Source of the DNA: Ruegeria atlantica
Lineage (GTDB): Bacteria; Pseudomonadota; Alphaproteobacteria; Rhodobacterales; Rhodobacteraceae
Assembly: GCF_013033965.1 (NCBI RefSeq)
Contig: NZ_WQFE01000002.1
Coordinates: 186,001-250,000, forward strand
Direction: 5' to 3'
Length of the DNA: 64,000 nucleotides
The translations under genes and the position numbers were made by a program. The notes beneath the pieces were generated by a model. That model made no database searches and was not told the origin of the DNA. It was given only the letters and a program-made list of their open reading frames with translations. Positions within the stretch are counted from its first letter, which is position 1. Every line of letters begins with the position of its first letter. Shown in pieces: positions 30,399 through 63,568 of this stretch.

Positions 30399-31775
30399 TT
30401 ACTTGGCAGCCGCGCCTGCACGGGCGGCCAGTTCCTGTTTGTCAGCTTCGATGATTGCGGCCTTTGCGTCCTCGTAGGCGTGATGCTCGGCATAATCGAG
30501 GCCTTGCAGTTCAACCTCTTCCGGGATGCGCAGCACGCCCATGGAAGATTGAATCTTGGCCAGAGCCCATCCAGGCAGGAAGCCCAGAACAAAGAACATG
30601 ATGACCGCGCCGGTGATCTGCCCGATCGGGTTGATCGTTGCATAACCTTCGTAAGGCGATGACGGGACACCCCACAGGACAAACCCTGAGATCACCAGAC
30701 CAACGAACCCGGCGTAACCGTGCACCGCAACGGCACCCACCGCGTCATCCAGCTTGAACCGGCGTTCGACCCAATAGTGCAGCTTGTACACGATGACGAC
30801 ACCGATGGCGGCAATGATCATCGCCTGGATTGGGTGATACAGATCGTTACCGGCCGAGGCGGTGATGATTCCGGCAAGCCCGCCCGAGAATGTCCAGAAC
30901 GCATCACCTTTCGAGATCACATATGCTGCCATCAGACCGCCAGACAGCGACATGAGGAAGTTGAAGGTGATCGCCGACAGGGTCGTCGGAGCCAGATAGA
31001 TGTTGGTTGCTGTCCAGGTTACGCCGGTGATTTGGCCGTCAATCGCCTCGGGCGAAATGGCAGGAACGTTGCAAGCGGCATAGAAGCCCCAGAACCCGGT
31101 ATAGATCAGAAAGATTCCGATCGTCAGCAGCCATGGATTGTGCGGCGGGATGTCCCGCGGCGTGCCGTCCTTGGCGAATTTGCCGAGGCGCGGCCCCAGA
31201 ACCATAATCACGCCAAGCGCGTAGCCCCCGGCAATGGCATGGATAACCCCAGAGGCGTAAGCATCATGGTAGCCTAGGATTCGCACCATCCAGCCGCCAT
31301 AGTGCCAGCCCCAGGCGGCGTCGATGATCCACCAGACCGATCCGATCATGACCGCATGCACCCAAAGGGCCGAAGATCTGATCCGTTCGATCACAGACCC
31401 GGAAACGATTGATGCTGCAGTCCAAGAGAACAGCAGGAATGCGGCCCAGAAAACCCCTGTGATTCTATCGCCAAGGTTGGTCGCCATCGTGTCGGCCCAG
31501 GGTAGGTTTGCTGCACCCGCTTCTGTGTCGAGCCCACCCCAGAACGGAAAGTTTGGAAAAGCCCAGTAGATCCACCATCCGAAGAAGAAGAATGTGACCG
31601 TCACAAGCGGGATGATCATGATGTTTTTCATCAATGTGTGCATATGGTTACGGGCTCGGCTGGCGCCGACCTCGTACATGCAAAAGCCCACATGGATGAG
31701 GAACATGAAAACGACCGTTACCCAGTAATAAAACTCGGTAAAGACCGTCGTAAGTGCGTTTAGATTACCATCCAC
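30399..31775 (-). CDS. amt: Ammonium/methylammonium transporter (Amt family)
   Basis: This 458-aa protein has about eleven membrane helices. The conserved pore residues are visible in YHDAYASGVIHAIAGGYALG (first pore His) and GAVAVHGYAGFVG (second pore His). Position upstream of mgsABC and gmaS suggests it takes up ammonium or methylamine, or recaptures ammonia released by the pathway. It diverges from dmmD across 338 bp. Substrate choice cannot be read from the sequence. Confidence 0.9.
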   Translation of the reverse strand: MDGNLNALTTVFTEFYYWVTVVFMFLIHVGFCMYEVGASRARNHMHTLMKNIMIIPLVTVTFFFFGWWIYWAFPNFPFWGGLDTEAGAANLPWADTMATNLGDRITGVFWAAFLLFSWTAASIVSGSVIERIRSSALWVHAVMIGSVWWIIDAAWGWHYGGWMVRILGYHDAYASGVIHAIAGGYALGVIMVLGPRLGKFAKDGTPRDIPPHNPWLLTIGIFLIYTGFWGFYAACNVPAISPEAIDGQITGVTWTATNIYLAPTTLSAITFNFLMSLSGGLMAAYVISKGDAFWTFSGGLAGIITASAGNDLYHPIQAMIIAAIGVVIVYKLHYWVERRFKLDDAVGAVAVHGYAGFVGLVISGFVLWGVPSSPYEGYATINPIGQITGAVIMFFVLGFLPGWALAKIQSSMGVLRIPEEVELQGLDYAEHHAYEDAKAAIIEADKQELAARAGAAAK

Positions 31776-58667: not shown

Positions 58668-58743
58668 GGGCCGTTAGCTCAGTTGGTAGAGCAACTGACT
58701 TTTAATCAGTGGGTCGCAGGTTCGAATCCTGCACGGCTCACCA
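58668..58743 (+). tRNA. tRNA-Lys (anticodon TTT)
   Basis: The acceptor GGGCCGT pairs with ACGGCTC (one G-T pair), the D arm is GCTC/GAGC, the anticodon stem ACTGA/TCAGT encloses CTTTTAA, and TTCGAAT is the T-loop. CCA is encoded. It marks the left edge of a lower-GC accessory island. Confidence 0.96.
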
Positions 58744-58766
58744 CTTTAACCGATTGATCGGAAACG

Positions 58767-59104: not shown

Positions 59105-60037
59105 ATGATTGAGCAACCCGTAACGATTTACTTCGATCTTGAGCCTAATGCCCGACCGACAATCGGGGCGATAGGGCGTGCTATGGTTGAATTTGAGAAA
59201 ATGGCTGGTGAGGCCATCTATTTGATGGAGCCAGGCGTTGAATTTTCGCTAGTCTATGAGACATCTGGAGAGGGAAGTCTCCGTATCATAACTCTGCTTA
59301 GAGGAGTCGTGACGCGCGATAGATTGAAGACACTTGCTATCATTTTGACAACAACTCTATTCAACAACGCAGTGGGACACTTTCAAGGTAAAGCGATGGA
59401 TGAGGTGGTCGAGGCTTTGGCTGACGAGAACACAACCTTAACCGATGAGGACATTGCCCGAATTGCTGAAGCCGTGTCGAAAATTGAGCGTTCAGAAACT
59501 GTCAAAACACCTCGGAGAGAGTTCTTTAAGGCAGTCGAACAAGATCAGGCGATTTCGGGGGTTGCCGCTGTTCCAAACGATAAAGACAAAAGGCCCGAAG
59601 TAATCGTGCCACGAGATGAGTTTCTGGAGCGCGCTACTCGCCATCCTGCGATAGAAAACGAAGATGTGGCTGAGCCACGTGTGGTCCCGGAACGGTTGGA
59701 AGTGGTTCTTGTTCAGCCTCCGCTAATCGACAGCAATCGACAGTGGAAGTTGTTCGCGAATGGGCATGAGTTTGGAGCAAAAATGCTTGATGAACGCTTC
59801 AAGCATCAAATCCTTGAGGGCACAACTGATCTACGATTGGCGGGTGGAGTGATATTAGATGTTACGCTTGAGGTAACCCAAGTCAATGAAGGTGGCTTGT
59901 GGTACAATAAATCTTACGCTGTGACAGAAGTTCATAGTTGGCGGCAAAACCCACAGCAGGCTGACCTATTGCTCGCGCATGGCAGCGATGACGACGAGCA
60001 AGACGATCAGAACGACAACAAGAATGGGCCACGCTGA
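59105..60037 (+). CDS. Hypothetical island protein, 310 aa
   Basis: No family was recognised. The N-terminal 110 residues form an alpha/beta-like domain (MIEQPVTIYFDLEPNARPTI; SGEGSLRIITLLRGVVTRDR). A charged helical linker follows (residues about 110-195), then a C-terminal beta-rich domain (RQWKLFANGHEFGAKML, DLRLAGGVILDVTLEV) and an acidic tail (DDDEQDDQNDN). It is soluble, without a signal. Lower GC than the genes before tRNA-Lys suggests horizontal origin. It converges on a tiny membrane protein gene. Confidence 0.75.
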   Translation: MIEQPVTIYFDLEPNARPTIGAIGRAMVEFEKMAGEAIYLMEPGVEFSLVYETSGEGSLRIITLLRGVVTRDRLKTLAIILTTTLFNNAVGHFQGKAMDEVVEALADENTTLTDEDIARIAEAVSKIERSETVKTPRREFFKAVEQDQAISGVAAVPNDKDKRPEVIVPRDEFLERATRHPAIENEDVAEPRVVPERLEVVLVQPPLIDSNRQWKLFANGHEFGAKMLDERFKHQILEGTTDLRLAGGVILDVTLEVTQVNEGGLWYNKSYAVTEVHSWRQNPQQADLLLAHGSDDDEQDDQNDNKNGPR

Positions 60038-60271: not shown

Positions 60272-60625
60272 CTATGATCTCCGCATCTTGTCGCGTCGGC
60301 CCCTTGCACAGTCGTAGCACGTATCGTCACCGGGTATTCTACGCTCCCCATGGCATTTTCGACACTTACGGTCAGGAGCAATGTAATATGCTTCTCCTCG
60401 CGCCCATGCCTCTGCCCTTGCTGGGTTAGGAGATGGTACACCAAGATCACCACGGTGATAGGCGTGCCATACTGCAATATTAGATACGCCAAGCAACTCA
60501 GCAATTTCCACACATTCGAGGGATTGGCTAAGGTGTTTTTTCTCGCGATATAGGCTTCTCGAGAGTTCAAGCGCTCTGGGAAACTCTCTCAAGTCGACCA
60601 GAGTTTTTCGTCTGTTGATGGCCAC
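60272..60625 (-). CDS. Zinc-ribbon/HTH-like small protein
   Basis: This 117-aa product starts at GTG 60625, 17 bp after the XRE gene stop. The middle part resembles a helix-turn-helix (CVEIAELLGVSNIAVWHAYH). The C-terminus has two CxxC pairs (CRKCHGERRIPGDDTCYDCA), a zinc ribbon. It is likely DNA-binding and in operon with the XRE regulator. Longer starts would overlap that gene and are rejected. Confidence 0.68.
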   Translation of the reverse strand: MAINRRKTLVDLREFPRALELSRSLYREKKHLSQSLECVEIAELLGVSNIAVWHAYHRGDLGVPSPNPARAEAWARGEAYYIAPDRKCRKCHGERRIPGDDTCYDCARGRRDKMRRS

Positions 60626-60641
60626 GTGTGTCAATCCTCGG

Positions 60642-60845
60642 TCAGTCCAGTAAAGCACCGACCTTGACACCCAGTGCTTTTGCCAGCTTGTCCACGACGG
60701 TGATCGTGGGATTGCGGGCTCCACGCTCAAGATCGCTAATATAGGTTCTGTGCAGCCCAGCTTCATGAGCAAATTCTTCCTGTGACCAGCCTTTCGACTG
60801 GCGCAGTCTGCGCATGTTTAAGCTTAACCGAGAACGAATGTCCAT
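60642..60845 (-). CDS. XRE-family transcriptional regulator
   Basis: This 67-aa single-domain helix-turn-helix protein (NMRRLRQSKGWSQEEFAHEA, GLHRTYISDLERGARNP) is like phage and mobile-element repressors. ATG 60845 is chosen over a TTG at 60863. It diverges from the HhH-like gene across 116 bp, suggesting it represses island genes. Confidence 0.85.
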   Translation of the reverse strand: MDIRSRLSLNMRRLRQSKGWSQEEFAHEAGLHRTYISDLERGARNPTITVVDKLAKALGVKVGALLD

Positions 60846-60961: not shown

Positions 60962-61690
60962 TTGACCTTGAACTTTGTCTCAATATCTTTGGTCGCAGAA
61001 CTAGCAGATCAAATTGAGAAAACTGATCTCGAGATTCCGGCCTTGGCTGGCGAGTACCGTTATGCCTCACTTCCCCTATGTGTCATTGACGCAGTTTTCT
61101 CAATCAGCGCACGCTACAGCAGCACGCAAAATACCGTGGAACGGTTTTGTCAATTTTCTGGTTGGACGCTCTTTGCTGCCGCGCGTGAAACTCGAGGTCC
61201 CGGTGAACATAGCGTTCATGAGTTCGTAGCAATTTGCGAAAACATCGTCCCCAAGGAAATGGCCGCATCTGTCTACGAAAATCGGCAAAGAACTTCTTCT
61301 CGCTCAGGCATTTTGAAGGCGGAGGCAGTCTATCTGTTTTGCCGCGCGTTATTAAGTGCTGGTATTGACGGTTTTACGGACTTGACTCAAGAACGCAGGG
61401 AATTTGCCGAGGCAATAATCTTAGGGTTACCTGGGCAGTCTAGTGGGATCGCTTTCGACTATTTTTTGATGCTTGCTGGCGACGACGATCTTGGAAAACC
61501 AGATAGGAGAGTTCAAAGTTTCATCGGCGAAGCCTTGCAAATGCAAAATCTTCCTCAGCCACGTCAAACCTCAGTGTTACTTCGACTTGCCGCCAAGGAG
61601 TTGCGAAGAAGAGGACAAAACTGGACATCGCTGACGCTGGATCGTGCAATCTGGGAGTATCATCGCACTAACGCGAATTTGGGTCTGTGA
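60962..61690 (+). CDS. HhH-GPD-like hypothetical protein
   Basis: This 242-aa product starts at TTG 60962. The segment LPGQSSGIAFDYFLMLAGDD followed by KPDRRVQSFI resembles the helix-hairpin-helix and aspartate of HhH-GPD DNA glycosylase-like proteins; AIWEYHR near the end and RNRQRT-like ENRQRTSSRSGILKAEAV belong to the same uncharacterised group. The usual KPDRM is KPDRR here. A role in DNA-base recognition is only an inference. It lies about 310 bp before the reverse transcriptase on the same strand. Confidence 0.65.
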   Translation: MTLNFVSISLVAELADQIEKTDLEIPALAGEYRYASLPLCVIDAVFSISARYSSTQNTVERFCQFSGWTLFAAARETRGPGEHSVHEFVAICENIVPKEMAASVYENRQRTSSRSGILKAEAVYLFCRALLSAGIDGFTDLTQERREFAEAIILGLPGQSSGIAFDYFLMLAGDDDLGKPDRRVQSFIGEALQMQNLPQPRQTSVLLRLAAKELRRRGQNWTSLTLDRAIWEYHRTNANLGL

Positions 61691-61841
61691 TTGTCCTCTG
61701 GCACTGCCATTCTGATAGCCACAAATGTTTTGAGTTTTCTGCGTAAAGCGTAAATGGCTGCATCATTGGAGTAGCTGTTTACAATCTAAGATTGACACCT
61801 CCCGAAGGCTTTGCTTTCTGTCTGGCATGGCGTGAAGCCTA

Positions 61842-61983
61842 GGTGGGGCGTGATCTACCTGGCCCTTATAGGGTCGATGACGACCTTTTCGGGAAACTGA
61901 ATTGGCGACAGTGGTTCGAGAGATCTACTGGATGGTATCGGCGACCAAAGGTTGCCGTTTCCCCTTACTCTATGCGCCCCACC
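61842..61983 (+). ncRNA. Candidate RT-associated structured RNA
   Basis: GGTGGGGCG (61842-61850) is perfectly complementary to CGCCCCACC (61975-61983), extendable by two G-U pairs, closing a 142-nt segment that ends 19 bp before the RT ATG. Inside are local hairpins: GGTCG-ATGA-CGACC (61872-61885), CAGT/ACTG (61909-61930) and GGCGACC-AAA-GGTTGCC (61940-61956). A further AGGCTT/AAGCCT stem (61806-61840) and a CAATCT-A-AGATTG dyad (61782-61794) lie upstream. The layout resembles retron or DRT ncRNAs placed 5' of their RT. Expression and ends are unproven. Confidence 0.6.
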
Positions 61984-62002
61984 GAAATTTAAGAGAGAAA
62001 TA

Positions 62003-63568
62003 ATGCGCAACGAATTAAGGTCAGAAATCAAACGCTTGAGCAAGAAAGCATTTGATAAAGAGCGTCAGCAGGCGGAAAAAGAGGCTAAGTACCGGGAAAA
62101 GTTTGAACGCCGAACCGGCCTATCAGCAGCGTCGCCATCTGTACGGTCACGAACTCCGCTGCACCGTCATTTTGATCCGCGACATTGCAAGCGAAATGCC
62201 AACGTTATCGCGACCGCGATTTGGCACAAGATTCTGCGAGAAGAATACGATCCCGAACCCGCCGTTCATTTCCAGATACCCAAGCCGGACGGTTCCAAGC
62301 GCGAAGTCACGGCTTTTGGAATTCCAGACGCTGCGGTGGCAAACGTTTTGCTTAGACGGACAATAAACAGAAATAAGAAACGGCTGTCCCCTCACTCATA
62401 TGCCTACCACCCGGATAAGAACGTCTTTGATGCTATTTTGGCGTTGAGAGATTTTGACAAAGGAGGGAAACTGTTCGCGGTACAAATCGACTTCGAAAAG
62501 TACTTTGACAACATCCCCGCGAACTATCTGAAAAAGAAGATCGCTGACCGGACAACGGTTAGTTTGACACCCCATGAGCGGCACATCTTTGAAGCCTTTC
62601 TTCATCACCGATATGGAGATGCCGAAGGCCACCGAACTTCGACGTTCAAGCGCAAAGTAAAGGGGACGCCGCAAGGTTCGTCAGCTTCCCTGATATTGGC
62701 GAACCTCGCAAATCATGACCTCGACAGAAAACTGTCTGCCGAGTCAGGGAAATTTGTACGGTTCGCGGATGACGTAGTGGCGATTTGTGGCAGCTACGAA
62801 GAAGCGCAGCGGCTGGAGCGATGCTTTGATCGGCATTGTGCGGAAAGCGGATTAATCGTTAACCGCAAAAAATCACCCGGCATTGCGGTGATTTCTGACT
62901 ACCAGCATGAAGTGCGGACCATCAATGATTTTACGTACCTAGGCTATGGTTTCAAAGATGCCGGCCTTACGCTTCCCAAAAAGACTGAGAAGAAACTACA
63001 GCAAAAAGTATCTCGGCTGATCAATGTTTACTTAATAAACGCGCTAAATCACGGCTTCAATCACAGAAGAGCCAATAGAAGACGAGGCTACGATTGGGAT
63101 TTGCTGGGCCTGATATATGAGCTTCGCAGAGGTTTTTATGGTGGTCTCAAGGAGCAAGATATCCAAGACTTTCTCTATAATCAGGGACAACTCAGGACGA
63201 TGCGCGGCCTGATGGGTTTCTACTGCCTGATTGAAGACCCCACGATACTGAAAGCGCTGGACGGTTGGACAGTCAACATGGTCCGTCGGGCTTGTGTTCA
63301 AAGAAGGCAAATACTGCGAAGCAGGTATGGTAGAAACTGCCCAACTCCGTCAAACGAAGAACTCATTCTAGGCAACTGGATTTCTCCGTCGGCATGGCGC
63401 GATGAAGGGGATGACGATGATGACGTCGAGGTTCAATTCCCTAGTTTGGTGAGAGGTTGGCGGGCTGCAAGGAAGCACTTTTTCACCTTTGGTTTGGAAG
63501 GTGTTCAGGCTCCCGGTTATGATTCCTCATTTGACGTTTCTGCGTTGTTTGATGCGTTTGACTATTAA
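62003..63568 (+). CDS. Reverse transcriptase of unknown group (UG/DRT-like)
   Basis: This 521-aa RT starts at ATG 62003 (AGAGAG upstream); a TTG at 61952 would read through the RNA hairpin and is rejected. Motifs in order are: motif A QIDFEKYFDNI (D163), motif B GTPQGSSASLILANLANHDL (222-240), motif C FVRFADDVV (D256, D257), a motif D-like region and a YLGYGF motif E near residue 312. The about 200-residue C-terminal domain is helical and of unknown type. Group II intron maturase/HNH domains and the retron VTG and NAxxH signatures were not seen. A stand-alone defence RT is the best guess. Confidence 0.85.
   Translation: MRNELRSEIKRLSKKAFDKERQQAEKEAKYREKFERRTGLSAASPSVRSRTPLHRHFDPRHCKRNANVIATAIWHKILREEYDPEPAVHFQIPKPDGSKREVTAFGIPDAAVANVLLRRTINRNKKRLSPHSYAYHPDKNVFDAILALRDFDKGGKLFAVQIDFEKYFDNIPANYLKKKIADRTTVSLTPHERHIFEAFLHHRYGDAEGHRTSTFKRKVKGTPQGSSASLILANLANHDLDRKLSAESGKFVRFADDVVAICGSYEEAQRLERCFDRHCAESGLIVNRKKSPGIAVISDYQHEVRTINDFTYLGYGFKDAGLTLPKKTEKKLQQKVSRLINVYLINALNHGFNHRRANRRRGYDWDLLGLIYELRRGFYGGLKEQDIQDFLYNQGQLRTMRGLMGFYCLIEDPTILKALDGWTVNMVRRACVQRRQILRSRYGRNCPTPSNEELILGNWISPSAWRDEGDDDDDVEVQFPSLVRGWRAARKHFFTFGLEGVQAPGYDSSFDVSALFDAFDY

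Follow-up and report, generated by a model that had tools for sequence, protein, structure and literature searches.

Near one end of a 64,000-nucleotide stretch of the Ruegeria atlantica genome (the window), a reverse transcriptase (RT) gene lies directly behind a structured RNA, which raises the question of what family of enzyme this is and what it makes from its RNA. The open reading frame runs on the forward strand from an ATG at 62003 to a stop at 63568 (positions 62003–63568) and encodes 521 residues, with the catalytic motifs DFEKYFDNI and FADD intact as originally predicted and with tyrosines Y506 and Y521 in the tail. The original prediction had left the enzyme unclassified, and this did not hold. 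PADLOC Drt9 was the top profile, with 513 bits over residues 1–507 against 118 for the runner-up model; three canonical DRT9 members score 632–735 bits on the same profile. The nearest sequences with solved structures were DRT9 RTs (E 2.9e-54), and the AlphaFold model of the window RT (mean pLDDT 88.1) matched six DRT9 chains at TM 0.80–0.84, followed by group II RTs at 0.55. Like the DRT9 enzymes of E. coli and Salmonella (9ioa, 9nlv, 9vma), this is an RT-only protein with a long N-terminal helix (residues 2–38 in the model) and C-terminal tyrosine(s), and the best of the fold matches is to 9vma (TM 0.84). Both the profile and the modelled fold thus place the window RT in the DRT9/UG28 family.

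Other identities were considered and rejected. The NCBIfam retron model St85 gave 41 bits against a cut-off of 235, and an Rfam scan of the RNA returned no match. A literal NAxxH string, which was originally reported as missing, is present as NALNH at residues 346–350, but it carries no weight for a retron because its stretch aligns with the DRT9 thumb. Placement with group II intron RTs, which the original prediction had singled out for checking, was not obtained: the TIGR04416 maturase model gave 133.8 bits against a cut-off of 300, and Rfam scans returned no intron RNA. DRT2 also combines an RT with an upstream RNA, but the NCBIfam Drt2 model reached 62.8 bits against a cut-off of 390 and the DRT2 structure matched at TM 0.47. 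Scores on the NCBIfam Drt3a and Drt4 models were under their cut-offs.

Pairwise comparison of 13 RTs separated the family into three sets with 27–38% identity between sets. The canonical set (E. coli, loci L030 and L031 and Hymenobacter L043) showed 47–60% mutual identity, the SLATT-associated set (L020, L017 and L044) 38–43%, and the six RTs compared from the window's branch 55–69%; L006, outside that comparison and the closest relative of the window RT, is 87% identical to it. Branch RTs are only 29–34% identical to E. coli DRT9, and ten RTs forming a sister subclade are 57–62% identical to the window RT. In the tree, the 23 branch rows grouped together with support of 100/99, within a topology that has very long inner branches, joins of L017, L020 and L043 flagged as unsure and an L028 row only 12% filled. 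On the basis of these sequences, the window RT most likely lies in a branch of the DRT9 family separate from both the canonical and the SLATT-associated sets. The latter share with it the Drt9 profile family (484–523 bits for the three scored) and, in L020, L017, L044 and L028, a long predicted stem that closes the upstream RNA, but a SLATT_5 gene adjoins their RT, and the RTs of L020, L017 and L044 are 31–38% identical to six branch members. No SLATT gene was found by Pfam in the three upstream window ORFs (59105–60037, 60272–60772 and 60962–61690) or in 12 of the 22 listed downstream ORFs of contig piece L059.

The branch also differs from canonical DRT9 in the active site and in the tail. 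We compared the best 120 of 649 protein matches (E <= 1e-10), a set that extends beyond this branch, leaving 118 after two fragments were removed. FADD was present in 110 of these 118 and YADD, the form found in DRT9, in four, with no match to the motif search in the remaining four. The Y-x-Y tail of E. coli DRT9 is absent from the branch, in which the tyrosines stand at another spacing: the tyrosine of a PxY motif (Y506) was invariant in 79 of 79 aligned relatives, and a tyrosine occupied one of the last three positions in 111 of 118 tails.

Most named branch members come from Alphaproteobacteria; entries from Pectobacterium and Phytobacter reach 57% identity, and Rhizobiaceae proteins of the window's own subclade 72–74%. 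Locus L032, from a genome of the same genus as the window (G1352), encodes an RT of the sister type that the tree shows as identical to protein P0056. Occurrence is sparse, as a Drt9 match (E 1e-60) was found in 10 of 394 genomes of the family, 5 of 390 drawn from the order, 2 of 385 from the class and 5 of 398 from the phylum; these sets overlap, each includes the window's genome, and the matches include canonical and SLATT-associated members. Branch relatives occur in IMG/VR contigs. Viral scans with the P0021 and L031 proteins gave no relative, and a DNA pattern scan of viral contigs, run with a pattern one N too long, gave 14 matches that look like coding sequence and lack an RT. Among phages, nothing matched the window RT at E 1e-30, plasmids yielded two remote matches at E 1e-40, and distant DNA searches (the sister type in E. 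coli, the window in plasmids) returned nothing.

The genomic setting was also considered. The RT and its RNA lie between a tRNA-Lys gene (58668–58743) and the end of the window. The 3' end of this tRNA gene forms part of a 52-bp repeat (58696–58747, forward strand) with a second copy beyond the window, at L059:10856–10907; the two copies are 98% identical and about 15.2 kb apart. A tyrosine integrase adjoins the far copy, and the element also encodes a primase-like protein. Just downstream of the RT, on the opposite strand, two overlapping ORFs (L059:587–2151) make up a terminase large subunit, of which the N-terminal part scored above its Pfam cut-off and the nuclease part under it (18.7 bits against 22.6). 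Judged from these features, the RT is cargo of an integrated, satellite-like element of about 15 kb at tRNA-Lys, which agrees with the defence-type island beside a tRNA and a terminase-like gene that had been proposed. E. coli DRT9 similarly adjoins an integrase at an RNA gene (ssrA). Between tRNA-Lys and the RT, a 310-residue ORF (59105–60037) matched the PADLOC candidate PDC-S42 (2.7e-14) and, at 88.5 bits against a cut-off of 60, NCBIfam LAPAL_fam. Four family libraries gave the 242-residue ORF directly upstream of the RNA (60962–61690) a single match, to phrog_29694 (2e-36), whose function is unknown.

The original prediction placed a structured RNA in the 142 nt before the RT gene. A covariance model (R1) built from ten relatives with the window excluded found the window RNA at 61828–61988 on the forward strand (51.4 bits, E 3.6e-10, model positions 1–137 of 137); a second, weak match at 31172–31219 (E 0.08) was taken as chance. 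The structured and conserved nature of the 142 nt was borne out, but the RNA begins earlier than predicted, at about 61828, with a GGC/GCC hairpin (61829–61839) outside the closing stem; this hairpin shows one C-G to U-A change in the window's subclade. Folding of 61828–61986 gave a minimum free energy of -70.5 kcal/mol (z -4.58), a value reached by none of 200 shuffles. The predicted 9-bp closing stem, P1, is found as nine pairs and one U-G, making 10 bp between 61842–61851 and 61974–61983; both partners change at alignment columns 18/156 and 23/151, and one of the four subclade sequences cannot form pair 20/154. Inside P1 are stem-loop a (61860–61876) and stem-loop c (61909–61930), both supported by covariation and fold, and stem-loop b (61881–61907), supported by the fold and by covariation in the subclade. 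Stem-loop b holds a UUUU at 61886–61889, which is half paired and is conserved in neither L008 nor L015. Stem-loop d (61939–61957), present only in the window's subclade, is the predicted hairpin with an AAA loop, its stem being 8 bp (61939–61946 with 61950–61957) and not 7. Rfam scans matched no known RNA family. This multi-stem RNA closed by a long stem resembles that of DRT9, except that the window lacks a terminator-like hairpin after the closing stem.

A TTGACA at 61792–61797 (forward strand) is the likely -35 promoter box for a transcript of RNA and RT. All 16 loci examined, which include some close relatives, have a TTGAC box 35–38 nt before the start of the RNA model (36 nt in the window), compared with 4 of 144 background stretches. 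This conserved spacing suggests that transcription likely starts at the first (5') hairpin. Since a consensus scan of 61690–62010 found neither a complete promoter nor a terminator, the RNA and the RT mRNA probably share one transcript.

Conservation of the stems in homologues, which the original prediction had made a test of the RNA, was examined in two alignments. In the sister subclade (ten relatives, window excluded), the alignment contains the 5' hairpin, the closing stem and three inner stem-loops, with 37 pairs in total. Both sides had changed in 17 of the 37 pairs, 97.8% of cells were paired, and none of 500 shuffles did as well on any of five measures; sliding the structure along the alignment reduced paired cells to 32–55%. 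The window's own subclade comprised the four RNAs with an intact 3' half (window, L006, L008 and L015) and showed both-side changes in 11 of 46 pairs (in P1, for instance, U-A to C-G and C-G to A-U), with a "further pair types" measure that 35 of 500 shuffles reached. Shuffle tests are inflated by kinship of the sequences, a weakness from which the slid controls and the independent R1 search are free. R1 also found L006 (E 4.9e-9), L008 (4.3e-9) and L015 (4.1e-6), as well as L009 (0.0034) and L007 (0.0065), in which the 3' half is missing. The 142 nt before the RT gene are thus part of a real, conserved structured RNA.

Several rows were left out of these comparisons. RNAs identical to a kept row (L001–L003, L022, L025, L026, L034, L035, L037 and L039), further copies (L021 of L009, L024 of L007, L036 of L033), L042 (upstream RNA equal to that of L041) and L005 (the window itself) were dropped. 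Also dropped were L018, L027, L038 and L040, which are partial or without upstream DNA, L019 for its remote RT, L007 and L009 for the missing 3' half, and L033, whose 5' half misfits the model as if chimeric and whose loop also reads CCCTGACT. L031, whose contig begins 110 nt upstream, was dropped as well, and only the first open piece of the frameshifted L016 RT was used. Alignment A5, made with the covariance model, misplaces stem c in the window clade and did not enter the counts. In L007 and L009, both metagenome-assembled genomes, the 3' half of the RNA including the loop discussed below is gone and RT-coding sequence follows directly, by true deletion or assembly collapse.

The element that may explain the function of this RNA had been overlooked by the original prediction. 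A 16-nt loop, UUUCCCCUUACUCUAU (61958–61973, forward strand), separates the last stem from the 3' arm of P1 and is unpaired except for a weak 2-bp pairing of 61961–61962. Its core, CCCUUACU (61962–61969), occurs nowhere else on the forward strand of the 64-kb window and is written CCCUKACU, or CCCU(U/G)ACU, across relatives. The loop reads UUUCCCCUUACUCUAU in the window, L006 and L008, GCUUCCCUUACUCUUA in L015 and variants of GACUCCCUGACUCU in the other branch RNAs. CCCUKACU was present in every branch RNA whose 3' half is intact (14 of 14), amounting to nine distinct loops, while the bases flanking it and the stems vary.

In canonical DRT9, the corresponding place is described as a loop near the active site that holds four uridines, U4 (positions 123–126 in Salmonella and 124–127 in E. 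coli); U4 templates poly-dA, and its change to A4 inverts the product to poly-dT (PMC12483538, PMC12489045). The upstream RNA of L041 (E. coli) serves as a true canonical reference, since its RT and the chain common to 9ioa, 9nlv and 9vma agree at 499 of 499 residues. Both loop types follow the last stem and precede the 3' arm of the closing stem, but UUUU was found in 0 of 14 branch loops against 3 of 3 assessable canonical loci, and CCCUKACU stands in the branch where DRT9 has U4. An ACU directly 3' of the run is common to both (AAU in Hymenobacter L043); when the loops are aligned on it, U4 corresponds to CCU(U/G), and the C run therefore lies two bases 5' of the U4 register. R1 does not cross over to canonical RNAs: run with filters off, it did not find them, the best of 30 matches (12.5 bits) lying elsewhere, so the loops are equated by position and a 3-nt motif and not by an alignment. 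The only upstream RNAs that came up in that search were those of L017 (9.6 bits, E 0.86) and L020 (6.4 bits, E 4.4), with scores expected by chance. The SLATT-associated loops are also unlike U4. The upstream RNA of L020, a locus with an RT of only 33% identity, contains UCCCUGACU, and the others read CCUCAUACU (L017), AUUAUCUA (L044) and AUAAUCUA (L028). Given these non-U4 loops, the template may vary over the whole DRT9 family. The canonical U4 loops themselves contain direct repeats (UUACUU-UUACUU in L041, UUACUU-UUACU in L030 and UUAAUU-UUAAUU in L043), matched by 1.3–6.4% of shuffles.

On the basis of these features, we propose that a DRT9-type RT, encoded behind its own RNA, copies a C-rich loop repeatedly into G-rich DNA linked to a tail tyrosine and thereby stops phage growth, a scheme to which we give about an even chance. 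By DRT9 precedent, the RNA would serve as both scaffold and template, an architecture of RT and adjacent RNA that the original prediction had called correctly, and the loop at 61958–61973 would be the template, given its position and the analogy with U4. C-terminal tyrosines are reported to prime DNA synthesis in DRT9 (PMC12483538, PMC12489045), and the primer here would be Y506 or Y521. The complex, probably oligomeric in keeping with the hexamer published for DRT9, would copy the same few loop bases over and over, and copying of CCCCUU or CCCU would yield G-rich DNA. This could be a G homopolymer, formed by slipping on the C run, a form that fits because CCC is invariant. Alternatively, it could be a short G-rich repeat, which in the window might be AAGGGG copied from UU-CCCC-UU; this form fits because U flanks the C run on both sides in 12 of 14 loops (not in L013 and L023). 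The expected outcome would be abortive infection. The further claim, that this large, mostly alphaproteobacterial branch swapped U4 for a C-rich template and makes long, protein-linked G-rich DNA (homopolymer or telomere-like repeats, possibly forming G-quadruplexes) and not poly-dA, is more tentative, and we hold it at somewhat less than even. In SenDRT9, an RNA with U4 changed to C4 is reported to have failed (PMC12483538), which counts against a C template and implies that the branch would have had to adapt.

Two other products appear unlikely, to a similar degree. The first is poly-dA made by an ordinary DRT9, templated by the UUU at 61958–61960 just 5' of the C run or by another U stretch. 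The family and fold are those of DRT9, and UUU occurs in the loops of the window, L006 and L008; however, it is missing from the L015 loop and from nine of ten sister loops, which have U runs of one or two, and the single UUU of L013 lies at the 3' end of the core. Deletion of a single uridine (U124) in SenDRT9 is also reported to have abolished defence (PMC12483538). The UUUU of stem-loop b was rejected as a template on account of its place in a stem-loop and its lack of conservation.

The second is a defined tandem repeat, added in the manner of DRT10 or telomerase from a loop of A-B-A' form, such as an 8-nt unit from GACUCCCU-GACUC in L010; we consider this improbable as well. DRT10 (UG17) is likewise a Class 2 UG RT with a structured RNA, in which the template is required just 3' of a stable stem and A/A' can be as short as 2 nt (PMC12632851). 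A 5-nt direct repeat is present in the loops of L010, L012, L014 and L029, with 1.4–3.5% of shuffles as good, and CU-KA-CU is kept in 14 of 14 loops. However, A does not exceed 2 nt in the window, L006, L008, L011, L004, L032 and L016, a length that 95–100% of shuffles reach, and the 3–4-nt repeats of L015, L013 and L023 are reached by 9–50%. The A side also varies while the A' side is constant. With the 5-nt repeat in only 4 of 14 loops and the window's 2 nt at chance, A-B-A' was rejected as a general rule of the branch. Furthermore, DRT10 is described as needing SLATT together with A-B-A' and as using a serine primer (PMC12632851), whereas no SLATT gene was found among the scanned ORFs around the window RT, which scored 80.7 bits on the UG17 profile. 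Finally, the least probable reading is a scaffold RNA in which the loop serves structure or protein binding and the enzyme is untemplated or copies another part: the extreme conservation of the eight nucleotides would equally fit a protein contact and the likeness to the U4 loop is positional only, but the template is reported to occupy the analogous loop in DRT9, DRT10 and DRT3, and the window RT has the DRT9 fold.

The proposal of a C-rich template bears on how DRT9 is currently described. The published mechanism is tied to poly-dA and to a poly-uridine template described as universally conserved, in a study with an RNA model built on 201 systems and a tree, from another search, of 438 homologues (PMC12483538). 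No natural DRT9 with a non-U template was found in the literature searched, which was mostly open-access text (including passages of PMC12632851, PMC13213688 and PMC13174585). The original suggestion of an undescribed group stands in part: the family is known, but the branch has a likely template loop lacking U4. If a C-rich template is confirmed, the product of DRT9-type immunity would not be fixed, and more than one DNA alphabet would be in use. It would also connect DRT9 with DRT3 and DRT10, which make a variety of repeats, and would provide a test of whether toxicity stems from poly-dA itself or from any long repetitive DNA.
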